This document shows, piece after piece, positions 44,354-60,265 of a stretch of 64,000 bases of DNA. Made by a program: the position numbers and the translations under genes. Location: contig CAJOCL010000003.1 in NCBI GenBank assembly GCA_905233565.1, positions 62,001 through 126,000 of the forward strand, read 5' to 3'. The stretch is from an uncultured Synergistales bacterium. Its GTDB lineage: Bacteria; Synergistota; Synergistia; Synergistales; Aminobacteriaceae. How positions within the stretch are numbered: the first letter of the stretch is position 1; the number at the start of each line of letters is the position of its first letter. The notes beneath the pieces are model-generated. The model saw nothing but the letters and a program-made list of their open reading frames with translations. It did not search any database and was not told the origin of the DNA.

Positions 44354-45114
44354 TTTGTCAAAATCTCCGGCCCGTCATCAAGAATAACTATCGAGCGTTC
44401 AAAATGTGCCGCGTCGGAACCGTCAGCCGTTGAAACCGTCCAGCCGTTGGCTCCAGTTTTCACTTTTTCGCGCCCGGACATAATCATAGGCTCAATTGCT
44501 ATAGTCATGCCAGCTTTAAGCGTCATACCCTGACCGGCCTTCCCGTAATTCGGAATCTGGGGGGCTTCGTGCATTTTTCTACCGATGCCGTGTCCCGTGT
44601 AATCCCTGACTACTCCGAAACCGTAGGATTTAACGTAACTTTCAACCGCGTGTCCGATGTCTCCGAGCGTATTGCCCTTGAGGGCTGAAGATATTGCCCT
44701 GTTCAGAGACTCTTCGGTAACTTCAAGAAGTTTTCTGCGTTTATCGCTTATTTCGCCCACAGGGTAAGTGCAGGCGGCATCACCGCAGTAACCGTTGACA
44801 TAAGCCCCTACATCAATGCTGATTATATCGCCTTCCTGAAGTATCCTGTTAAAGTCGGGTATACCGTGAACGACTTCTTCATTGATTGAGGCGCATATAG
44901 TACCCGGAAACGGTGTCATGTTGAACGCGGGCTTATAGTTCTTGAACGCGGGTATACCGTTGTTTTTCCGTATGTGTTCTTCGGCGAGCCTGTCAAGTTC
45001 ACCTGTTGAAATACCGGGACGGACGGCCTCACGCATTATGTCGAGAACTTCAGCCGTTACGCGTCCGGCATTCCTCATTAACTGGATTTCTTCAGGCGTT
45101 TTAATCTTTATCAT
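44335..45114 (-). CDS. map: type I methionine aminopeptidase
   Basis: ISIDVGAYVNGYCGDAACTYPVG, DYTGHGIGRKMHE, MTIAIEPM. Confidence 0.96.
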   Translation of the reverse strand: MIKIKTPEEIQLMRNAGRVTAEVLDIMREAVRPGISTGELDRLAEEHIRKNNGIPAFKNYKPAFNMTPFPGTICASINEEVVHGIPDFNRILQEGDIISIDVGAYVNGYCGDAACTYPVGEISDKRRKLLEVTEESLNRAISSALKGNTLGDIGHAVESYVKSYGFGVVRDYTGHGIGRKMHEAPQIPNYGKAGQGMTLKAGMTIAIEPMIMSGREKVKTGANGWTVSTADGSDAAHFERSIVILDDGPEILTKWQSFL

Positions 45115-45116
45115 GA

Positions 45117-45734
45117 TTACAACAGTCTCAATTCATCGGAAACACGTTCAAAAACTTCTTCGGGCATTCCCGTTGCGTCAATTTCAAGCAATAAGCCCCT
45201 TGACCTGTAAAAATCTTCAAGTGCTTCTGTCTGTTCGTGAAAAACCCTGAGGCGTTCCCTGATCGTCTCTTCGTTGTCATCATCGCGCCTGTAAAGTTCT
45301 CCTCCGCATAACGGGCATTTGCTGTGTTCATGAATGTTCGTAACGTTTCCGCATTCTTTGCATACTGCCCTGCTGGTCAGCCTCTTGACGATTGCTTCAT
45401 CAGGTACTTTGAATAATATAACGCCGTCAAGTTTCGTTATGCTTTCGAGAAATTCCGCCTGCTTAACCGTACGGGGGAACCCGTCAAGCATGAAACCTTC
45501 TTCGGGCTTTAATTCAGCCAGCTTAGTGCCTACCATTTTCATGACTATATCATCAGGAACTAACTGGCCTGAGTCCATATATTTTTTAGCTTCAAGACCC
45601 AAAGGAGTATTCTCTTTAAGATTATGCCTGAAAATATCTCCTGTTGAAATATGAACCAGATTGTGCCTTTCTTTAAGGAAGACGGCCTGAGTGCCTTTAC
45701 CGGCCCCAGGCGCACCTAATAATACCAGCCTCAT
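45117..45734 (-). CDS. adk: adenylate kinase with Zn LID domain
   Basis: GAPGAGKGTQA; CKEC...CPLC LID. Confidence 0.96.
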   Translation of the reverse strand: MRLVLLGAPGAGKGTQAVFLKERHNLVHISTGDIFRHNLKENTPLGLEAKKYMDSGQLVPDDIVMKMVGTKLAELKPEEGFMLDGFPRTVKQAEFLESITKLDGVILFKVPDEAIVKRLTSRAVCKECGNVTNIHEHSKCPLCGGELYRRDDDNEETIRERLRVFHEQTEALEDFYRSRGLLLEIDATGMPEEVFERVSDELRLL

Positions 45735-45736
45735 AA

Positions 45737-47041
45737 TTAACCTCTGAGAAGCCCTCTGCGTCCGCCGCCGGATTTCTTTAATATTCCGTCATAGTGGCGC
45801 ATGAGTAACTGTGCCTCGATCTGGTTTATCGTATCCATTGCAACGCCGACAACGATTAATACTGCAGTTCCGCCGAAATAGAAGCTGTTAATTCTCAGAA
45901 CTGACGACATAAGATTCGGAATTAAAGCGATTACCGCAAGGAATACAGCTCCGCCGAGCGTTATTCTTTCCATTACACGGGTAATGTAATCTGACGTCGG
46001 CTGACCGGGTCTTATGCCTAAAATAAATCCGCCGTATTTCTTCATGTTGTTTGCTATGTCCGTAGGATTAAAGACAACGGCCGTATAGAAATACGAGAAG
46101 AATATAATCAAGGCAACGTAACAGAGAATATAAAAGAAACTGTTCGGCGCAAACAAAGCACTGATAAATCTTCCTGCTGCACTCTCGCTGAAGTAATTAG
46201 CGATTGTATACGGAAAAATCAGAAGCGAGCTTGCGAAAATTATTGGAATAACTCCTGACTGATTCACTTTTAACGGGATAAAAGTACTCTGACCGCCGTA
46301 AATTTTATTTCCTACAACTCTCTTTGCATACTGTACGGGTAATCTCCTCTGCCCTTCCTGAAGGAGAATACAGCCGGCAACAACCACGACCATGAGAACG
46401 ATACCGACAAGAAGGCCGATGACGCTCATTGAGCCTAAACGAACCATGTTCCAGGTCTGTAATATAGCCTCCGGGATCCTCGCAACGATACCGGCAAAAA
46501 TCAACAGTGATATGCCGTTCCCGACACCGTGATCGCTTAACTCTTCGCCCAGCCACATTACTGCAACAGAACCTGTAACAAGCGTAATCACTACGAGCAT
46601 CCAGTCAAGAAAACCGCCCTGCATTATGCCCAAGCTGCCGAGCCATGCAGTCATGCCGATCGCCTGAACTACGGCAAAGACTACGGCACCGTACCGCGTC
46701 CACTGCGTAATTTTTTTGGGGCCGTCCGTACCGTCCTTCTGTAATTTTTCCAGATACGGGAAAATTACGACCAAGAGCTGCATAACGATGCTTGAATTAA
46801 TGTACGGTGCAACGCCCAGCGAGAATATTCCGAAACGGCTCAAGGCACCGCCCGAAAACAGGTTCAGGAAATCCATAACGCCGCCTTCGCTCGTGCTGAA
46901 AAGAGCTGCCATAGCCGCACGGTTTACGCCCGGACTTGGGATATATGCGCCGAGCCTGAATATAAACAGAATGAAGAGCGTGAAAAATATTCTGCGCTTC
47001 AGATCCGGCAGCCTGAAAATATCACCCAGAGACCCGAACAT
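45737..47041 (-). CDS. secY: SecY
   Basis: Ten-TM SecY with GVAPYINSSIVMQLL and QEGQRRLPVQYAKRVVG. Confidence 0.97.
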   Translation of the reverse strand: MFGSLGDIFRLPDLKRRIFFTLFILFIFRLGAYIPSPGVNRAAMAALFSTSEGGVMDFLNLFSGGALSRFGIFSLGVAPYINSSIVMQLLVVIFPYLEKLQKDGTDGPKKITQWTRYGAVVFAVVQAIGMTAWLGSLGIMQGGFLDWMLVVITLVTGSVAVMWLGEELSDHGVGNGISLLIFAGIVARIPEAILQTWNMVRLGSMSVIGLLVGIVLMVVVVAGCILLQEGQRRLPVQYAKRVVGNKIYGGQSTFIPLKVNQSGVIPIIFASSLLIFPYTIANYFSESAAGRFISALFAPNSFFYILCYVALIIFFSYFYTAVVFNPTDIANNMKKYGGFILGIRPGQPTSDYITRVMERITLGGAVFLAVIALIPNLMSSVLRINSFYFGGTAVLIVVGVAMDTINQIEAQLLMRHYDGILKKSGGGRRGLLRG

Positions 47042-47490
47042 CAGACTACCTCGTGAGTTCCGCCGGAAGCCTCGATCTTTTTCACAGCTTCCGCGCTGAA
47101 TGCTCCGGCCTTGATTTTAAGGGCTTTGCTGAGTTCTCCGTCAGCAAGAATCTTAACGGGAATATTTTTCTTTCTTATGATTCTTGCGTTGAACATGGCT
47201 TCAGCGTCAACCTCTGAGCCGGCCTCGAATTTCTTTTCGAGAGTTTTCAGATTTACGGGCTGGAAGAACTTCGCAAATCTGGCATTGTTAAAGCCGCGTT
47301 TCGGTGTCCTTCTGGTCAGGGGCATCTGGCCGCCTTCAAATCCCGGACGAACGCCGCCGCCGGTTCTTGACTTGTCGCCCTTGTGTCCTTTTCCGGAAGT
47401 CTTGCCCGTTCCGCTTCCGATACCCTGTCCCAGACGCTTTGCCTTATGCGTTGAGCCTTTAACAGGGTGCAAATCCTGTAACGTTATCAT
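47041..47490 (-). CDS. rplO: ribosomal protein L15
   Basis: KRLGQGIGSGTGKTSGKGHKGDKSRTGGGVRPGFEGGQMPL. Confidence 0.96.
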   Translation of the reverse strand: MITLQDLHPVKGSTHKAKRLGQGIGSGTGKTSGKGHKGDKSRTGGGVRPGFEGGQMPLTRRTPKRGFNNARFAKFFQPVNLKTLEKKFEAGSEVDAEAMFNARIIRKKNIPVKILADGELSKALKIKAGAFSAEAVKKIEASGGTHEVV

Positions 47491-47669
47491 TCGACAACCT
47501 CCCATTTAACCAGATGGCGCACGTGTTCAATCATTCCGCGTACCTGCGGTGTGTCATCGTGTTCAACTTCAGAATTTAATTTTCTGAAACCGAGTGCCTT
47601 TATTGTGCGCTTCTGTCTCTCAGGGAATCCAATTGCGCTTTTGATCCACTTTGCCTTAATCTTTGCCAT
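47487..47669 (-). CDS. rpmD: ribosomal protein L30
   Basis: KSAIGFPERQKRTIKALGFRKLNSEV. Confidence 0.95.
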   Translation of the reverse strand: MAKIKAKWIKSAIGFPERQKRTIKALGFRKLNSEVEHDDTPQVRGMIEHVRHLVKWEVVE

Positions 47670-47674
47670 GTGAA

Positions 47675-48223
47675 TCACTCCCCGATTGCCTGCACTGCTT
47701 CTTCAGCCGGTGCTTCTTCAACTGTTTCTTCAACACCTGAAAGTCCCCTGAGTTTCATAATTTCGTCCTCAGTTCTGGTTATCCTGATCGCCTCAAGTGT
47801 TGCGTGTGCAATGTTTATAGCGTTTGAAGTTCTGCCCGTAACTTTCGTAACTACGTCTTTGACTCCGCCAAGCTCCATAATTGCGCGGACAACTCCGCCC
47901 GCAATGACTCCAGTACCTTCGGGGCAGGGCTTGAGCAAAACCCTTGCAGCTCCGAACTCTCCGACAACAGGGTGAGGAATTGTATTCCCTGCGTGGCGTA
48001 CTGAAACCATGTTCTTTTTGGCTTTTTCGATTCCCTTGCGGACTGCTTCAGCGATTTCCTTTGCCTTGCCGATTCCGGTTCCGACCTGTGATGCTCCGTC
48101 ACCTACGACAACAAGGACTGCAAAACGGAATCTCTTTCCGCCTTTAACAACCTTGCTGACACGGTTAATGGCTACAACGCGCTCCTGAAGTTCAGCGGCT
48201 TCTGTTTCATTTCTTCTGGGCAT
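47675..48223 (-). CDS. rpsE: ribosomal protein S5
   Basis: LQERVVAINRVSKVVKGGKRFRFAVLVVVGD. Confidence 0.97.
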   Translation of the reverse strand: MPRRNETEAAELQERVVAINRVSKVVKGGKRFRFAVLVVVGDGASQVGTGIGKAKEIAEAVRKGIEKAKKNMVSVRHAGNTIPHPVVGEFGAARVLLKPCPEGTGVIAGGVVRAIMELGGVKDVVTKVTGRTSNAINIAHATLEAIRITRTEDEIMKLRGLSGVEETVEEAPAEEAVQAIGE

Positions 48224-48588
48224 CAGAATACAAGCCCTCCTTCTCTGGCGGCATCAGCTACCGCCATAACTTTTCCGATATAGGCATGACCGCCCCTGTC
48301 AAAGACAACTGAGCTGATCCCCTTAGCTTTTGCACGTTCTGCGATTGCCTTTCCGATTACTTTGGCTGCCTCAACGTTGCAGTGTCCTTTAAGTTCGGGC
48401 TGCAATGACTTGTCAAGGGTTGACGCTGAAACGAGAGTGTGTCCCTTTTCGTCGTCAATGACCTGAACATAAATATTCTTGAGGCTTCTGAAAACGCACA
48501 TACGGGGCTTCTCGGCTGTACCTGAAAGCGTCCTGCGCAGTCTCTCATGCCTTATTACGCGCATATCATTTCTGCTTTTCTTTTTCAT
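48223..48588 (-). CDS. rplR: ribosomal protein L18
   Basis: L18 fold motifs; [28 protein letters not shown]. Confidence 0.96.
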
Positions 48589-48594
48589 GATGTT

Positions 48595-49134
48595 TTACTT
48601 CGCCCCAGTCTTGCCGGCCTTGCGGATTATGTATTCATTCTCGAATTTAATACCTTTTCCATGATAAGGCTCAGGCGGTCTGAATTTCTTTATCAGGGCG
48701 CATGTCTGACCCACTAACTCTTTATCAATTCCCCTGACATGGAACTTTATGGGATTTTCCACGACTATTTCGATACCTTCGGGAGGCGTGAACTCGATGG
48801 GATGTGAATAACCCAAGTTCATGACGAGCTTTTTACCCTGAAGGGCTGCACGCCAGCCTACTCCGACGATTTCCATTGTCTTTGAGAATCCTGCCGTAAC
48901 GCCCGTAACCATGTTGGCTATCAACGCTCTTGTCATTCCGTGCCAGGCTCTTGTCTGTTTGTCCTCGCTTGTGCGTGAAACTTTGACCTGTCCGCCGTCA
49001 ACGTCAACAACTATTCCGGGCATTAACTGAGCATGAAGCTCACCTTTCGGGCCTTTGACTTTTATATCAGTACCCTTGACTTCAACGCTTGCGCCTTTTG
49101 CGATTTCTACTGCTTTGCGTCCGATACGAGACAT
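48595..49134 (-). CDS. rplF: ribosomal protein L6
   Basis: MSRIGRKAVEI... and PPEPYHGKGIKFENE. Confidence 0.97.
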   Translation of the reverse strand: MSRIGRKAVEIAKGASVEVKGTDIKVKGPKGELHAQLMPGIVVDVDGGQVKVSRTSEDKQTRAWHGMTRALIANMVTGVTAGFSKTMEIVGVGWRAALQGKKLVMNLGYSHPIEFTPPEGIEIVVENPIKFHVRGIDKELVGQTCALIKKFRPPEPYHGKGIKFENEYIIRKAGKTGAK

Positions 49135-49149
49135 TTTATATAACCCCTC

Positions 49150-49554
49150 CTACCAGACATAGCAGAGAACTTCTCCGCCCAAGCCTAATTTATGGGCTTC
49201 AGTTCCTGTCTTCAGGCCCTTTGACGTTGAGAGAATCGCAAGACCCAGACCGCCCATGACAACGGGTAATTTGTCGTGGCCTACATAAATTCTCCTGCCG
49301 GGCTTGCTGATTCTGCGGAGACCCTGAATTACGCGCTCTTTGCTGTTTCCGTATGATAAATATATCCTGATTTCCGCATACGGCTTTTCAGGATCAGTAA
49401 TCATTCTGAAATTCCTGATGTAGCCTTCTTCTTTGAGAATGCGGGCTAATGCTAACTTCATTTTGCTCGATGGAATGTCAACGCTCTCTGCATATGTCAT
49501 GTTAGCGTTGCGAATCCTCGTGAGCATGTCTGCAACCGGATCATTAACGTACAA
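49150..49554 (-). CDS. rpsH: ribosomal protein S8 (TTG start proposed)
   Basis: [16 protein letters not shown]...[36 protein letters not shown] before TTG at 49554. Confidence 0.93.
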
Positions 49555-49568
49555 CTTGACACGCCCCC

Positions 49569-49754
49569 TTACCAGCTCGACTTGACAACGCCGGGGAATA
49601 ATCCCTCGCGTGCCATTTTCCTGAAGCAGCAGCGGCACATATCAAACATACGGATATAGCCGTGAATCCTTCCGCATAACGGGCAGCGGTTGTGCTTTCT
49701 CGTGCTGAATTTAGGGGGGAGCTGTGCTTTCAACTTTAATGCTTTTCTTGCCAT
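49569..49754 (-). CDS. rpsN: ribosomal protein S14 (type Z, zinc)
   Basis: [22 protein letters not shown]. Confidence 0.96.
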
Positions 49755-49762
49755 TTTGTGTT

Positions 49763-50320
49763 TTATACCCCCTGATTTCCTGTCCTGAACGGCATTCCAA
49801 GTCCCTTTAACAGCGCAAAAGCCTCTTCATCAGTCTTTGCACTCGTTACTATTGAAACGTTCATGCCGCGTGAACGTATAACTTTGTCATAGCTTATTTC
49901 AGGGAAGATTAACTGCTCGCGTAATCCTAAATTGAAATTGCCGCGGCCGTCAAAGCCTTTTCTTGAAATTCCCTGAAAGTCCTTTATTGAAGGCAGTGCC
50001 AGAGATATGAGCCTGTCAAGAAATTCCCACATTTTCGCGCCCCTTAACGTTACCGCACAGGCAACGGGCATATTCTGACGGACTTTGAAACCTGCTATGG
50101 ATTTCTTTGCACGCTTCAATAACGGCTGCTGTCCCGTGATTGCGCGAAGTTCGGCTATTGCTGCGTCCATGAACTTAATATCGAGTTTTGCATCGCCGAC
50201 TCCGATATTTACGACGACTTTTTCGATTTTAGGCATCTGCATGACGTTTTTATAACCGAACTCACGGAGCATTGCGGGAGCCACTTCATTTTTGTACTTC
50301 TCAAGCATTCTCGGTGTCAT
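49763..50320 (-). CDS. rplE: ribosomal protein L5
   Basis: [14 protein letters not shown]...[15 protein letters not shown]. Confidence 0.97.
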
Positions 50321-50323
50321 GGC

Positions 50324-50659
50324 TTAAAGTCCTCCGCGATCTATGATTTCTCCGCATTTCTTGCAGACGCGGACTTTTTTCCCGTTCTCAAGGAATGAGG
50401 CTCCGACCCTCGTAGCCTTTCCGCACTGGGGACAGACAAGCATAACTTTGCTGGCATAAATCGGAGCTTCCTGCTTGATGATTCCGGACTGCGGGTTATT
50501 CTGGCTGGGCCTTACGTGGCGCGAGACCATATTTACGCCCTCGACGACGACTAAATCCCTCTCAGGGATACGGCGTATAATCTTGCCTTCTTTTCCCTTG
50601 TCCTTGCCGGTGATTACTTTCACGCGGTCATTTTTCTTTAATCTTACTGTCATTGTCAA
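50324..50659 (-). CDS. rplX: ribosomal protein L24
   Basis: [20 protein letters not shown]; Cys pairs CPQC/CKKC. Confidence 0.96.
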
Positions 50660-50665
50660 AATCTC

Positions 50666-51034
50666 CTATACGACTTCAGGAGCAAGCGACAAAATGCGCA
50701 TGTATTTTTTTGCTCTCAGTTCACGCCCGACAGGCCCGAAAATTCTCGTACCTCTTGGCTCTCCGTTTGCATCGATCAATACTGCAGCATTATCGTCAAA
50801 TCTCACGTATGTTCCGTCTCTGCGCCTGACTTCTTTTTTAGTCCTGACTATGACGGCCTTAACTACGCTGCCCTTTGCAATATTGCTGTTCGGAATTGCC
50901 TCACGGACTGAGGCGACTATTACATCGCCTATAGTACCGTAACGCCTTTTGCTTCCGCCCATAACCTGAATGCAGAAGAGTTTTCTTGCTCCCGAATTAT
51001 CAGCGACGTTCAGAACACTTGTAAGCTGTATCAT
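50666..51034 (-). CDS. rplN: ribosomal protein L14
   Basis: [27 protein letters not shown]. Confidence 0.97.
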
Positions 51035-51331
51035 TTATTCCTGAACCTCCTCTGATGATTCACCTAATTCGCCCTCACTGCCGAACACAGGGGCTTTACG
51101 CATAATTTCAAGCAGCTCCCAGCGTTTGGTCTTGCTGAGGGGTCTTGTCTCTCTGATGCGTACCTCGTCTCCCATTCCGCACTGATTCTCTGCATCATGG
51201 GCAACGTATTTCTTTGCGCGCTTAATTCTCTTACCATAAAGCGGGTGTTCGGCCATTCTCTCAACGCGGACAATTATCGTCTTGTCCATTTTGTTGCTTA
51301 CGACTATACCCGTTCTAACTTTACTCGGCAT
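51035..51331 (-). CDS. rpsQ: ribosomal protein S17
   Basis: [39 protein letters not shown]. Confidence 0.96.
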
Positions 51332-51554
51332 TGTCTGCTTCCTTTTCTGGCTTAAAAGCGGCCTTTTCAGCTGCTATCGTCATGAGCCTTGCGATGGTCT
51401 TTCTGACATCGCGTATACGGCTGGTATTTTTCAAGTGCCCGACAGCATTCTGAAAACGCAGGTTGAATAATTCTGTCTTGTACTCCTTAATTTTCCCGGC
51501 AATTTCCTCGCTCGTTAATTCTCTGAGCTTTTCCGGCTTTACGCTCGCGTCCAT
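51321..51554 (-). CDS. rpmC: ribosomal protein L29
   Basis: [52 protein letters not shown]; start at MDASVKPE. Confidence 0.94.
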
Positions 51555-51558
51555 CAGG

Positions 51559-51955
51559 CTAATCACTCCCTCCGCTGCGTACAAAGCGAACCTTCAGGGG
51601 CAGTTTGTGGCTGTGCGATTTCCTCGCTTATTCCCGAGAACTCGAACAGTACGCGGCCTCTTTTTACGGCGGCTACCCAAAATTCAGGCGCACCTTTTCC
51701 CTTACCCATACGAGTTTCAAGCGGCTTCTTTGTGTATGGCCTGTCAGGGAAAACGCGTATCCAGATTTTTCCGCCCTTTTTCATCTTACGGGATATTGCT
51801 ACACGGGCTGCCTCTATCTGCCTGGCCGAGAGCCATACATTTTCGAGTGCCTGTATACCGTAATCACCGAATGAAATTGTCGTGCCTCCCTTTGAAATTC
51901 CCCTTAACGGAGATCTGTGGGACTTGCGGTATTTTACGCGGCTTGGCATTAACAT
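51559..51955 (-). CDS. rplP: ribosomal protein L16, apparently frameshifted near the 3' end (as-read ORF ends at 51563)
   Basis: Normal L16 through [13 protein letters not shown]; the conserved [12 protein letters not shown]-terminus is in another frame, ending at TAG 51559-51561. Confidence 0.9.
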
Positions 51956-51961
51956 GGTGAT

Positions 51962-52645
51962 TTACGCCCCCTTATTCGCCGGCCTGTTTCGCGCCGGACG
52001 TGCCGGAGCCTGAGCCTTTTCGTTTTTTCTGTCGCGGTAAATCCAGACTTTGCAGCCTATTACACCGTACATAGTTACAGCCTCTGCAAAACCGTAATCA
52101 ATATCAGCCCTTATCGTTGAAAGAGGCAGCTGACCTTCGTTGTACCATTCAGTCCTTGCAATTTCAGCACCGCCCAAGCGTCCTGCGACCTGAGCCTTTA
52201 TGCCTTTAACGCCTGCTTTTGTTGCGCGGAAGATTGCCTGTTTCATTGCACGCCTGAATGATACTCTGCGTTCGAGCGAGCTTGCGATACCTTCGGCGAC
52301 TAACTGAGCCTCAACATCAGGATTCTTTATCTCATGAACGTTTACCATTACTTTACCGCCGGTGATGGCCTGAAGTTCATTCTTGATATTCTGAATCTCA
52401 TTTCCGCCCTTGCCGATGACTACGCCCGGCCTTGCCGTGTGAATCGTGAAACGCACAACAGGCCCAACGCGCTCTATCTCGATACGTGAGATCCCTGCGC
52501 CTTCCCACTTTTTCATTATGTACTTACGCAGCTTTATATCTTCATGTAATTTCTTTGCGTAATTTTTTTTGTCGGCGTACCATCTTGACTGGCATTCGCT
52601 TGATACTCCGAGACGGTAGCCGATTGGGTGAACCTTCTGTCCCAT
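51962..52645 (-). CDS. rpsC: ribosomal protein S3
   Basis: MGQKVHPIGYRLGV...PGVVIGKGGNEI. Confidence 0.97.
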   Translation of the reverse strand: MGQKVHPIGYRLGVSSECQSRWYADKKNYAKKLHEDIKLRKYIMKKWEGAGISRIEIERVGPVVRFTIHTARPGVVIGKGGNEIQNIKNELQAITGGKVMVNVHEIKNPDVEAQLVAEGIASSLERRVSFRRAMKQAIFRATKAGVKGIKAQVAGRLGGAEIARTEWYNEGQLPLSTIRADIDYGFAEAVTMYGVIGCKVWIYRDRKNEKAQAPARPARNRPANKGA

Positions 52646-52647
52646 TC

Positions 52648-53007
52648 TTATTTTGCCTCCTGCTGACGTTCGCCGAGCTTAACGGTGATATGCGTGAGCT
52701 TATGTACATAAGGGTGGGCGCGTCCCATTGATACCGGCCTGAATCTCTTCATTACCGGCCCCTGATCCGCGAAAGCCTCATGGACATAGAGTTTGTCCAA
52801 GTCCATGCCGTAATTATGCTCTGCGTTCGCCATTGCGCTGTTTAAGACCTTGAGGATTAACCCTGCGGCCTTCTTGTCGCTGAACTTCAAAATTACCTGT
52901 GCGCGTTCTGCACTTTTTCCGCGTATAAGTTCAAGCACCTGACGGACTTTATACGGTGAAATTCTGGCGTTTTTCGTCTTTGCTGCTGCTAATTTAATCT
53001 CTGCCAT
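52648..53007 (-). CDS. rplV: ribosomal protein L22
   Basis: ARISPYKVRQVLELIRGKS...KRFRPVSMGRAHPYVHKLTHITV. Confidence 0.96.
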   Translation of the reverse strand: MAEIKLAAAKTKNARISPYKVRQVLELIRGKSAERAQVILKFSDKKAAGLILKVLNSAMANAEHNYGMDLDKLYVHEAFADQGPVMKRFRPVSMGRAHPYVHKLTHITVKLGERQQEAK

Positions 53008-53010
53008 AAT

Positions 53011-53283
53011 TTATTTACCTTTCTTGTCCTGTCCTGCGTGATGCCCGAATTTTCTCGTCGGAGCAAACTCGCCCAGCTTATGGCCGACCATGTTCTCGCT
53101 GATATAGACGGGAAGGTGCATACGGCCGTTATGTACCGCGATAGTGTGCCCGATCATCTGGGGTACTATCATTGAACGTCTTGACCAGGTTTTAACGACT
53201 TTTTTGCTTCCTGAAACGTTCATTGCTTCTATTCTGTCAAGGAGCCTCTGTTCAACAAAAGGCCCTTTCTTTGATGAGCGCAT
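53011..53283 (-). CDS. rpsS: ribosomal protein S19
   Basis: [15 protein letters not shown]...[24 protein letters not shown]. Confidence 0.97.
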
Positions 53284-53302
53284 TTTATGTCTTCAGCTCC
53301 TT

Positions 53303-54130
53303 TTACTTGTCATAACGCCTGCGGATTATCAGCTTGTCTGACGGTTTGCGCCTGCGTGTCCTGTAACCCTTCGCAGGAGTTCCCCAAGGCGATACGGGGT
53401 GCTTGTTGGATTTTGATTTTCCTTCACCGCCGCCCATCGGGTGATCTACAGGGTTCATTACCATTCCGCGAACTACCGGCCTTCTGCCCTTCCAGCGTGT
53501 CTTTCCGGCCTTGCCCCACGAAATATTGTCGTAGTCCTCATTGCCGACCTGTCCTACGGTGGCCATGCACTCAAGCAGTATCAGCCTTAATTCACCGCTG
53601 GGCATTCTGATATAAGCGTATTTGCCTTCTTTTGACATTAACTGTGCTGATGTTCCGGCAGCCCTGACGAGTTTTGCGCCGTTTCCAGGCTGGAGTTCAA
53701 GATTATGAATGAACGTACCGACCGGAATATCTTTCAATTTCAGAGCATTGCCCGGCGTAATGTCGCTTTCAGGCCCTGAGTAAATAACATCGCCGACATT
53801 GAGATCCTTCGGCATGATGATATAACGCTTCTCGCCGTCAGCGTAATTAATCAGGCCGATTCGGGCGTTGCGGTTGGGATCATATTCGACCGTTGCGACT
53901 TTTCCCGGAATGCCTAACTTGTCGCGCTTGAAATCTATTATGCGGTAGGCTCTCCTGTGTCCTCCTCCGATATGGCGCATGGTTATACGGCCTGTATTAT
54001 TTCTGCCTCCATGCTTACGGAGATGTACTACAAGTGAACGCTCCGGCTTGTCTGCCGTAATATCTTCGCGCCCCTGAATGCTCATATGGCGGCGGGCAGC
54101 TGTATACGGCTTAAACTGTTTAATTGACAT
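53303..54130 (-). CDS. rplB: ribosomal protein L2
   Basis: [21 protein letters not shown]. Confidence 0.98.
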
Positions 54131-54148
54131 CTTCCTGTTTCTCCTACT

Positions 54149-54445
54149 TTATATCGATGCGCCCTCGAAAAATTCTATGTGCTGATCAGGCTTGAGGGCT
54201 ACGATTGCTTTTTTCCAAGAGCGTGTATAACCCTTTGATGCTCCGCGCCTGCGAAGTTTGCCCTTAACGTTTATCGTGTTCACTCCGTCTACTTTTACGT
54301 TGAAAACTTCCTCGACGGCCTTGCGAATCTGAATTTTATTCGCGCTCTTGTGAACTTCAAACGTATATTTATTCATAGCCATCAATGAGCTTGATTTCTC
54401 CGTTATTACAGGGCGTATGATTATGTCATGAGCAGTTAAATTCAT
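54149..54445 (-). CDS. rplW: ribosomal protein L23
   Basis: [31 protein letters not shown]. Confidence 0.96.
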
Positions 54446-55068
54446 TTTGAATATACCTCCTCAATCTTTGCGACAACTTCGGGCGTTACAATGAGATTCT
54501 TTGCGTTGAGAATGTCATAGACGTTTATGCTTGCCACGTTGATGCACTTTGCGCCGGGTAAATTTCTGACTGAGCGCGTTACGTTAAGGCCGTTATTGTG
54601 ATAAATGACTAACGTCTTTCCGAATCCGAGAGTGTCAAAAAGATTCTTTACGGCCTTAGTTGACGGCTTCTCGATAGCGTCAAAGCCCTTAACGACCGCC
54701 ATTAACTCTTCGCGTACCTTGTCTGACAATACGCTTCTGAGAGCAAGGCGCATGACCTTTTTATTGACCTTCTGGTGATAATCCCTTGGATGCGGGCCGT
54801 GAGCAACTCCGCCGTGTACCCATATCGGGGAACGCGTACTTCCCTGACGTGCGCGGCCTGTGTGCTTCTGCCTCCAAGGCTTCTTTCCTCCGCCTGAAAC
54901 ATCACCGCGTGTCTTTGTGCTGTGAGTACCCTGACGGCAGTTAGCAAGATGCGCAACGACAACCTGATGAATTGCCGGCATATGCACGGGAACATCAAAG
55001 ACTGCTGATGACAATTCCATTTCTCCGGCTCTGTCTCCGTTGAACTCGTATACTTTTACGAATGGCAT
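54442..55068 (-). CDS. rplD: ribosomal protein L4
   Basis: [48 protein letters not shown]. Confidence 0.97.
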
Positions 55069-55083
55069 TATTCTTTACCCTCC

Positions 55084-55710
55084 TTATGCCTTCTTGCAGA
55101 GGGCAAGCAGACTGTTCTTTGAACCGGGAACTGCGCCTTTTACCAGAAGTAAATTATTCTCAACGTCTACGGCCATTACAGTAAGATTCTTGACCGTTAC
55201 TTTATCGCTGCCCATATGTCCGGGCATTCTCTTGCCGGGAAATACGCGGCCGGGATACGATATAGCACCGCTTGAACCTCCGTGCCTGTGTTCGACCGAA
55301 GTACCGTGACTGAACTGCTGGCCTCCAAAGTGATGACGCTTGATTACTCCTGCAAATCCCTTTCCTTTGGAGATACCCTTAACGTTAATTTTCTCTCCAG
55401 CCTCGAAAATGTCAGCCTTTAACTCCTGTCCAACTTCGTAGCCCTTTACATCGTCAAGCCTAAATTCCCGAAGTGTCTTTCTGGGTTCAAGTTTCAGTTT
55501 CTCGAACATGACCCTCTGTGCTTTGGACAGCTTATGAGCCTTGACAGCCCCGAAGCCGAGAAGAACGGCGGAATATCCGTTCTGTTCAGGGGTTCTCAGA
55601 GCAACGACAGAACACGGCCCTGCAAGGACGACCGTAACAGCTACGGCCTGTCCTTCCGAGTCATAAATCTGTGTCATTCCGAGTTTTTTCCCCAGAATCC
55701 CTATTGACAT
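55084..55710 (-). CDS. rplC: ribosomal protein L3
   Basis: MSIGILGKKLGMTQIYDSEG...GKGFAGVIKRHHFGGQQFSHGTSVEHRHGGSSG. Confidence 0.97.
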   Translation of the reverse strand: MSIGILGKKLGMTQIYDSEGQAVAVTVVLAGPCSVVALRTPEQNGYSAVLLGFGAVKAHKLSKAQRVMFEKLKLEPRKTLREFRLDDVKGYEVGQELKADIFEAGEKINVKGISKGKGFAGVIKRHHFGGQQFSHGTSVEHRHGGSSGAISYPGRVFPGKRMPGHMGSDKVTVKNLTVMAVDVENNLLLVKGAVPGSKNSLLALCKKA

Positions 55711-55735
55711 AATTGTTAATTCTCCTAACTAATAA

Positions 55736-56041
55736 CTAAAATTTAATCTGTATGTCCACGCCTGACGCTAAATTAAGCTGCATCAGTGCGTCCATAGTCC
55801 TCTGTGTCGGATCTATAATGTCTATAAGCCTCTTGTGAGTACGCATCTCGAACTGCTCGCGGGCATCTTTGTCTTTATGGGGCGATTTCAGTATCGTTAT
55901 CCTTCCCACTTCAGTAGGCAGGGGAATCGGACCCGAAACCCTCGCACCTGTTGACTGTGCCGTCTCTGCAATTTGTGCCGCTGAGATGTCAAGAACTCTG
56001 TGATCAAATGACTTAAGACGTATGCGGATTTTGCGTGCCAT
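55736..56041 (-). CDS. rpsJ: ribosomal protein S10
   Basis: [14 protein letters not shown]...[23 protein letters not shown]. Confidence 0.98.
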
Positions 56042-56055
56042 GATTTTTACTCAGC

Positions 56056-57258
56056 TTACTCGATTATCTGGGTTACGACTCCCGCACCGACCGTGTGTCC
56101 GCCTTCACGTACTGCGAAGCGGAGGCCTTCCTCCATTGCTATAGGCACAATAAGCTCAACCTCAAACGTTGCATTGTCGCCAGGCATTACCATTTCGACA
56201 CCCTCAGGAAGTTTGATGTTGCCGGTAACGTCTGTCGTTCTGAAGTAGAACTGAGGCTTGTAGCCTGCAAAGAACGGTGTATGTCTTCCGCCCTCTTCCT
56301 TCTTGAGTACGTAAACTTCACCTTTGAACTTCGTGTGAGGCGTAACGGTGCCGGGCTTTGCGAGAACCTGTCCGCGCTGTACTTCGTCCTTGTCAATGCC
56401 GCGAAGAAGTACGCCTACGTTGTCGCCTGCCTCTGCGCTGTCAAGAATCTTCCTGAACATTTCAAGCGATGTTGCAACCGTCTTGCGCGTATCCCTTGTC
56501 ATTCCGACGATTTCAACTTCCTCGCCTGCCTTGACTACGCCGCGCTCAACTCTTCCCGTAACAACTGTTCCGCGTCCCGTAATCGTGAATACGTCTTCAA
56601 TGGGCATAAGGAACGGTTTATCAATTTCACGTACAGGATCGGGAATGTACTCGTCGCAGGCATCCATAAGATCCCAGATAGGCTTGCAGATAGGATCTTC
56701 ACGTGTTCCGTTGCCTTTTTCGAGAACTTCAAGGGCTGAACCGCGAATAATAGGAATGTCATCGCCGGGAAATTCGTACTTGTTGAGAAGTTCGCGGACT
56801 TCCATTTCAACGAGGTCGAGAAGTTCAGGATCGTCAACCTGATCCGTCTTGTTCATGAACACAACAAGCGCGGGAACGTTGACCTGACGTGCAAGAAGAA
56901 CGTGCTCACGTGTCTGAGGCATAGGGCCGTCCGCTGCTGAAACAACAAGGATTGCGCCGTCCATCTGTGCAGCACCGGTAATCATGTTCTTGATATAGTC
57001 CGCGTGGCCGGGACAGTCGATGTGTGCATAGTGCCTCTTAGGTGTCTGATACTCAACGTGCGCAATGTTAATCGTGATTCCGCGCTCCCTCTCTTCAGGG
57101 GCTTTATCGATCATGTCATATGCTGTGAACTCTGCGAAACTCTGAGTAGCAAGGCACTTTGTGATAGCTGCCGTAAGTGTCGTCTTGCCGTGGTCAATAT
57201 GCCCGATAGTTCCAATATTCAAATGGGGCTTGTTGCGCTCAAACTTTTCTTTTGCCAT
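56056..57258 (-). CDS. tuf: elongation factor Tu
   Basis: [18 protein letters not shown]...[28 protein letters not shown]. Confidence 0.98.
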
Positions 57259-57299
57259 AATTCATTCTCCTTACTTTCTTTTCTTTTGATGATTAAAGA

Positions 57300-59363
57300 T
57301 TAAATTCTCCCCTGCAAAATCTTTTCACTGACTTCCGCAGGTGTCTGCTCGTAATGGTCAAACTGCATTGAATAATTCGCACGTCCTGAAGTCTTGCTTC
57401 TCAGGTCAGTTGCGTAACCGAACATTCCGACCAGAGGAACGAATGCACGTACTATTCTAGCATTTGCCTTCATATCCATACCGTCAATGCGTCCGCGCCT
57501 CGATGATATATCGCCGATTACGTCCCCTAAATATTCTTCAGGTGTTACGACTTCAACTGACATAACTGGCTCCATGAGTACGGGATCGGCTTTTTTCATG
57601 GCCTCTTTGAATCCCATTGACGCTGCGATCTTGAACGCCATTTCTGAACTGTCAACTTCGTGATATGAGCCGTCAACCAGAGCAACTTTCACGCCGATAA
57701 CGGGATAGCCTCCGAGAACGCCCGATTGTATGGACTCTTCAAGACCTTTTTCGACAGCCGCGATAAATTCTTTGGGAATTACGCCGCCAACGATTTTATC
57801 CTCAAACTCGAATTTTCCGCCTTCAATAGGCTCAATCTCAAACACGACATGTCCGTACTGACCGCGTCCGCCTGACTGACGGATGTATTTTCCTTCTGCG
57901 CGTGACGGCTTTCTGATTGCCTCGCGGTAAGATACCTGCGGATTCCCGACTTTTACGTCAACGCCGAACTCGCGCTTTAACCTGTCGACAATAATTTCAA
58001 GATGTAATTCTCCCATTCCTGATATTACTGTCTGCCCGCTCTCATCGTCATTATGTACCCTGAAAGTCGGGTCTTCGTCTGCTAGGGCGTTAAGGCCTTT
58101 TGCGAGTTTAACTTTATCCTGCTGGGTTGCCGGTTCAACAGCGAGCGAGATTACGGGTTCCGGGAACTCCATATTCTCAAGCACTATCGGATTAGCCTCA
58201 TCGCAGAGGGTGTCGCCTGTCCTTGAACTTTTCAGGGACGGAACGGCTACTATCATTCCGGCTTCCATTGAGTCGATATCCTCGCGCTTGTTCGAGTGCA
58301 TTCTCATTATACGGCCTATGCGCTCTTTCTGCCTTGACGTTGGATTATAAAGCACTCCGCCTTTGTCCATTTTCCCCGAATAAACACGGAGGAAAAACAA
58401 TCTTCCCAAATACGGATCGACCGCAATTTTGAATACCAGTGCCGAAAACGGTTCGGCCAGGCTGCTGTGCCTCTCTACAATCTTCTCAGGGTCTGAAGGA
58501 ACAAATCCTTTTATTGCCGGAAGATCTATCGGGCTCGGCAGATATTCGACAACCGCATCGAGTAAAGGCTCAACACATTTATTCTTGAATGCCGATCCGC
58601 ATAAAACGGGCACGGCTTCGAGCTTTATTACGGCCTCGCGCATTGTCTTGCGTATAAGTTCAGAGCTTACGGGCTTGCCCTCAAGATAAAGCGTCATAAT
58701 GTCGTCGCTGAAATCTGAAAGTGCCTCGATTATTTCATCTCTGCCCTGTTTTGCCGACATTGCCAGCTCAGGCGGTATTGTTCCCTCTTTCGGGGGCTGT
58801 CCGAGAACTCCAGGGAAATAATATGCTTTCTGCTCTATTAAATCCACAACACCCTCGAAATCGTCCTCTGCACCTATCGGGAGCTGTACGGGTATAGCGT
58901 TCGCACCGAGCCTCTCGCGCATGGCCTTGACGACTGCGGGGAAATCCGCGCCGATTCTGTCCATTTTGTTTACGAAAGCTACACGCGGAACGTCATATTT
59001 ATCCGCCTGTCTCCATACTGTTTCAGACTGAGGCTCAACCCCTCCGACCGCACAGAATACGGCGACAACTCCATCGAGAACGCGCAGTGAACGCTCAACT
59101 TCTGCCGTAAAATCCACGTGGCCTGGCGTATCAATTAAATTGATAGTATAACCCTTCCACGCGCATGTTGTGGCTGCTGAGGTTATTGTTATTCCTCTTT
59201 CGCGCTCCTGTTCCATCCAGTCCATTGTCGCGGTGCCTTCATGAACTTCTCCGACTTTGTAATTGCTTCCCGTGTAATAGAGAATGCGTTCACTTGTCGT
59301 AGTTTTTCCGGCATCTATATGGGCTGCTATTCCTATGTTTCTTACTTTGCTAATATCCTGCAA
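57300..59363 (-). CDS. fusA: elongation factor G
   Basis: [24 protein letters not shown]...[17 protein letters not shown]. Confidence 0.98.
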
Positions 59364-59399
59364 AAATACACACCTGCAAAATTAAATTTTTTTTTCGGC

Positions 59400-59870
59400 T
59401 TACCAGCGGTAATGAGCAAATGCCCTGTTAGCTTCAGCCATTCTGTGAGTGTCATCACGGCGCTTTATTGATGCTCCTTCATTCTTGTAAGCATCCATTA
59501 ATTCACGCATGAGCCTTTCACCCATAGGCATACCCTTTTTTGCCCTTGCATATGAAACTATCCAGCGTATTGAGAGCTGAACGCCTCTTTCCGGCGTAAC
59601 TTCAACGGGTACCTGATAAGTTGCACCGCCGACTCTTCTCGGCCTTACTTCTATATTAGGTGTAACGTTGGCCATAGCTTTTTCAAAAACTTCAAAGGGT
59701 TCAACGCCTAACTTTTCCGCAGCTCCTTCTAATGCTCCGTAGAATATTTTTTCGGCTACGCTGCGTTTTCCTCCCATCATCAGCGCACTGATGAACCTTC
59801 CTGCTGCCGGGTTATTAAATCTTACGTCCGGCTGGGGTTCACGTTTCTTGATGTGTCCTTTTCTCGGCAT
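59400..59870 (-). CDS. rpsG: ribosomal protein S7
   Basis: MPRKGHIKKREPQPDVRFN...ANRAFAHYRW; start at MPRKG. Confidence 0.97.
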   Translation of the reverse strand: MPRKGHIKKREPQPDVRFNNPAAGRFISALMMGGKRSVAEKIFYGALEGAAEKLGVEPFEVFEKAMANVTPNIEVRPRRVGGATYQVPVEVTPERGVQLSIRWIVSYARAKKGMPMGERLMRELMDAYKNEGASIKRRDDTHRMAEANRAFAHYRW

Positions 59871-59887
59871 AATAAGCAATCCTCCCG

Positions 59888-60265
59888 TTAATTGGCTTTC
59901 GGTCTGCGTGCGCCGTACTTTGAGCGGCTCCTCTTGCGGTTTTCAACTCCGCCGCAGTCGAGAGTTCCCCTTATGATGTGATAACGGACACCGGGCAAGT
60001 CCTTAACCCTTCCGCCTCTTACAAGAACGACTGAGTGTTCCTGCAAATTATGGCCGATTCCCGGGATATATGACGTTACTTCGATGCCGTTTGTCAGCCT
60101 GACACGCGCAACTTTTCTTAATGCTGAGTTCGGCTTCTTGGGCGTAATCGTATAAACACGCGTGCAAACGCCCCTTCTGGCCGGATTCCCCTGCAATGCC
60201 GGAGAATTACTCTTGCTTTTCTTTTCCTCGCGTCCTAAACGCACTAACTGATTAATTGTCGGCAC
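59888..60265 (-). CDS. rpsL: ribosomal protein S12 (GTG start)
   Basis: [11 protein letters not shown]...[20 protein letters not shown]. Confidence 0.98.

Follow-up and report, generated by a model that had tools for sequence, protein, structure and literature searches.

Ribosomal protein L16 (uL16, family PF00252), the product of rplP, is found on the A-site side of the peptidyl-transferase centre and makes contact with the A-site region. It is a late-assembling component of the large subunit and is needed for 50S maturation (PMC4199504). In Bacillus subtilis L16 was reported to be essential, as a deletion mutant was unobtainable (PMC4199504), in line with the premise of the original prediction that the protein is normally indispensable. 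Assembly errors account for many of the supposed pseudogenes in public bacterial genomes (PMC11017572). In the window (the whole 64,000-nt stretch analysed, from the genome designated G000), rplP occupies its usual place between rpsC and rpmC within an otherwise intact ribosomal-protein operon in the ORF list, but is interrupted near its 3′-end (Table 1). The ORF list has rpmC beginning further upstream, at a TTG (51584), than its presumed ATG start near 51553. The fusA ORF (57300-59363) opens with TTG, with an in-frame stop just upstream in a congener-based alignment, and this TTG may be the true fusA start.

Table 1. Features at and around the interrupted rplP gene, in window coordinates.
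Feature	Position	Strand	Basis
rpmC (L29), intact downstream neighbour of rplP	51321..51553	-	sequence, ORF list
100-nt block identical to G010, G095 and G089 (rplP 3′-end and rpmC 5′-end)	51513..51612	-	exact-match scan
Disconnected native L16 C-terminus (17 residues) and stop TAG (51559-51561)	51559..51612	-	translation, comparison with six congener sequences
rplP (uL16) as read	51563..51955	-	ORF list; PF00252 match, 155.2 bits
Deletion junction (20 nt missing, compared with all congeners)	51612..51613	-	31-sequence MAFFT alignment
rpsC, intact upstream neighbour of rplP	51962..52645	-	ORF list; no flag against relatives

The rplP ORF predicts a product of 130 aa, in which the first 114 residues are native and the last 16, before a TGA stop (51563-51565), are frame-shifted. 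Its profile score exceeds the curated PF00252 cut-off (27.9 bits), as expected of a functional uL16 member, and the match is confined to positions 1-115 of the 132-position profile. Over residues 1-115, identity to congener L16 is about 88-97%. The relatives that are named in GTDB are metagenome-assembled genomes of Synergistaceae or Fretibacterium, several of them of ruminant origin, and the window probably derives from an assembly of this kind. When the window and 30 congeners were aligned with MAFFT (31 sequences), exactly 20 nt were missing from the window gene after codon 114; the gap is found in the window only, and all 30 congeners keep the 20 nt. This alignment, together with translation of 51559-51612, confirms that rplP carries a 20-nt deletion and frameshift that disconnects the C-terminus, as the original prediction had proposed. 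Judged from the sequence, the lesion is far beyond chance, as the C-terminal sequence resumes in full where it would be expected, but in a different frame.

Two details of the prediction are revised. The loss of seven residues between the flanking L16 segments holds for length; the genus alignment identifies them as QEAFRTA or a close variant, not the REALRLA-like sequence suggested. The site of the break, placed where a single nucleotide (51613) was thought to replace the missing stretch, is also correct, but AG is present at both ends of that stretch and the breakpoint is therefore ambiguous by 2 nt. The open frame of the window gene lacks the C-terminal helix and final strand, which every aligned congener possesses, and in the relatives whose loci were translated L16 has the usual helix and strand at its end.

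One reading of this arrangement is that a real deletion has become fixed and is tolerated, either because a 114-residue L16 core works or because a frameshift at the junction skips the seven helix residues and keeps the final strand. Two points favour tolerance: the native C-terminal frame has no interruption before its usual stop codon, and the shifted frame terminates just 4 nt before that codon, which would leave coupling to rpmC little altered. However, the deletion is absent from all congeners aligned, and the helix and strand that it removes are present in the translated loci of relatives. In AlphaFold runs that used the same partner sequences, which are predictions and not stability tests, the L16 of an intact congener reached a mean pLDDT of 75.4 with residues 111-124 forming a helix and 129-133 a strand, whereas the truncated window L16 reached 43.4 and had no confident fold. 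These models agree with the lost C-terminal part being integral to the L16 fold. No frameshift signal was recognised at the rplP junction when it was checked by eye, and none of the aligned relatives has a split frame at the site, as a gene subject to programmed ribosomal frameshifting would. With 20 nt missing, a single shift would still omit about seven residues and would not restore the complete protein, and the earlier statement that frameshifting alone could not recover the missing helix residues holds. A tolerated deletion is accordingly considered very improbable, though a real truncation would challenge the view of the L16 C-terminus as indispensable.

The two sides of the break were compared with those of the closest congeners. 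Over the 114 codons before it, 41-44 codons differ synonymously and only 5 non-synonymously from G010, G095 and G089 (41 and 5, respectively, against G010). The 18 codons after the break include no nucleotide differences from the same three genomes, and one from L033. From these counts, rplP is under purifying selection and its disconnected tail is free of decay, so that the lesion must either have arisen very recently or be absent from the organism itself. That the tail diverges so little is in part due to its location at the rplP-rpmC junction, where the alignment is at its most conserved.

A recent origin could be explained by a real deletion that arose through short microhomology in some cells, dead or dying or belonging to a minority strain captured in the consensus, and that has not been fixed. 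The AG at both ends provides 2 nt of microhomology, and an undecayed tail fits an event too young to have left traces. Cells with a lesion in a protein reported as essential in B. subtilis (PMC4199504) should, however, not come to dominate the assembled population, and no other copy of rplP is present that could relieve them. We regard a recent deletion of this kind as unlikely.

Other copies of rplP were sought throughout the host genome, which comprises 2.02 Mb in 34 contigs and is estimated to be 96.5% complete. L16 is single-copy, with one profile match, and searches by profile, DNA and protein found no second rplP in the host genome, a check that the original prediction had suggested. Searches for a plasmid copy and for a viral-contig copy also returned zero matches. 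As some sequence is missing from the assembly, an intact rplP might lie in the unassembled part and the window copy might be a decaying duplicate. The window copy, however, occupies the position usual for rplP within an operon that is otherwise intact, it has been under purifying selection up to the break, and among the congeners searched two complete rplP loci were found in G021 only. An unseen second gene is therefore scarcely credible.

An rplP match was found in every genome of the genus that is at least 90% complete. The two complete loci of G021 are on two contigs, C41 and C43, which carry two different copies of the rplP ribosomal-protein region, and this assembly is probably a mixture of two species.

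In a survey of the phylum, 170 of 188 genomes had an rplP match, and the best match was abnormally weak in three of these, G000, G092 and G179. The rplP gene of G092, which is in the same genus (L170, contig C92), has a 5-nt insertion near codon 50. In G179, from the same order (L171, contig C136), about 100 nt are deleted after codon 37 and the frame changes, so that residue 37 is joined to residue 73 across the shift. The three lesions are all different and each is private to its genome. Differing private indels would be the pattern left by sporadic draft-assembly errors, though each could also be a private mutation. L14, used as a control gene in the same 188 genomes, gave one split-looking match, in G162, probably at a contig edge. 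About 2% (3/170) of the phylum assemblies with an rplP match thus show a universal marker gene broken by an indel, a warning against taking a disrupted essential gene in a single draft assembly as biology.

The original prediction had left the choice between an assembly or consensus error and a real lesion, and the evidence now shifts the weight strongly to the former. The lesion is private to one assembly and selection is not relaxed downstream of the break, both as would be expected of an artefact. Because the lesion is unshared, no second copy exists, the tail is undecayed and other assemblies carry different private rplP indels, an error is favoured. The 20-nt deletion is very probably a sporadic sequence-level error in an organism that has a normal, full-length rplP, and assembly or consensus building would be the step at which it arose.

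Some observations are less easily accommodated. The sequence around rplP is clean, identity does not shift in the flanks and the 2-nt microhomology is compatible with a real deletion. A scan for frame breaks, with targets that included two 20-kb stretches beyond the window, mostly not comparable with the relatives fetched, found 167 matches of congener ORFs to G000 in which the frame is unbroken and which cover 23.5 kb. Among the items flagged as broken relative to their relatives, rplP was the one recognisable gene and most of the others were antisense or spurious ORFs; there was no sign of a generally error-rich consensus around rplP, nor of the flanks switching from one species to another. 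A gross chimera at the junction was considered and rejected, since ten congener stretches compared in 500-nt bins over window positions 45001-60000 show no identity step at the break. A hairpin favouring deletion was likewise rejected. The corresponding congener stretch can pair GGCTT with AAGCC around a 10-nt loop, but its folding energy does not stand out from that of shuffled sequences (z of 0.1 and -1.3 on the two strands).

The break adjoins the 100-nt block listed in Table 1, which is the longest exact match to each of G010, G095 and G089 within window positions 38001-64000. The position of the break beside this block hints at a cause, which is suggestive only, as one edge of the match is set by the deletion itself. 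When G010 and L033, neither of which has the lesion, are compared with each other, their longest exact match also falls at the rplP-rpmC junction. In the error favoured here, a draft assembly that is probably metagenome-derived would have picked up a sporadic 20-nt error in rplP. A 100-nt stretch identical between congeneric species may have confused the read graph or recruited reads from another species, and such a shared block could mislead an assembler where several congeners live together.

The block, which includes the rpmC ribosome-binding site and first codons, shows unusual DNA-level conservation across the genus. Mean pairwise identity in this region is up to 98% in a 30-column window, the mean for the alignment being 82%. 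On sequence grounds, conservation of the junction may exceed what start signals alone might explain.

The window L16 resembles other members of the uL16 family (PF00252) in residues 1-115 and in the place of its gene between rpsC and rpmC, but as assembled it is without most of the C-terminal helix and without the last strand. Like the rplP genes of G092 and G179, that of the window is interrupted by an indel and the lesion is found in one assembly; the lesions themselves are unlike, with a 5-nt insertion and an approximately 100-nt deletion with a frame change in the other two. A further parallel is with the spurious pseudogenes that arise from assembly errors (Cooley and Wright 2024, PMC11017572), with which the window gene shares a single-copy conserved gene, a private frameshifting indel and no surrounding decay. 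It differs from a typical homopolymer error in that the deletion is longer, at 20 nt.
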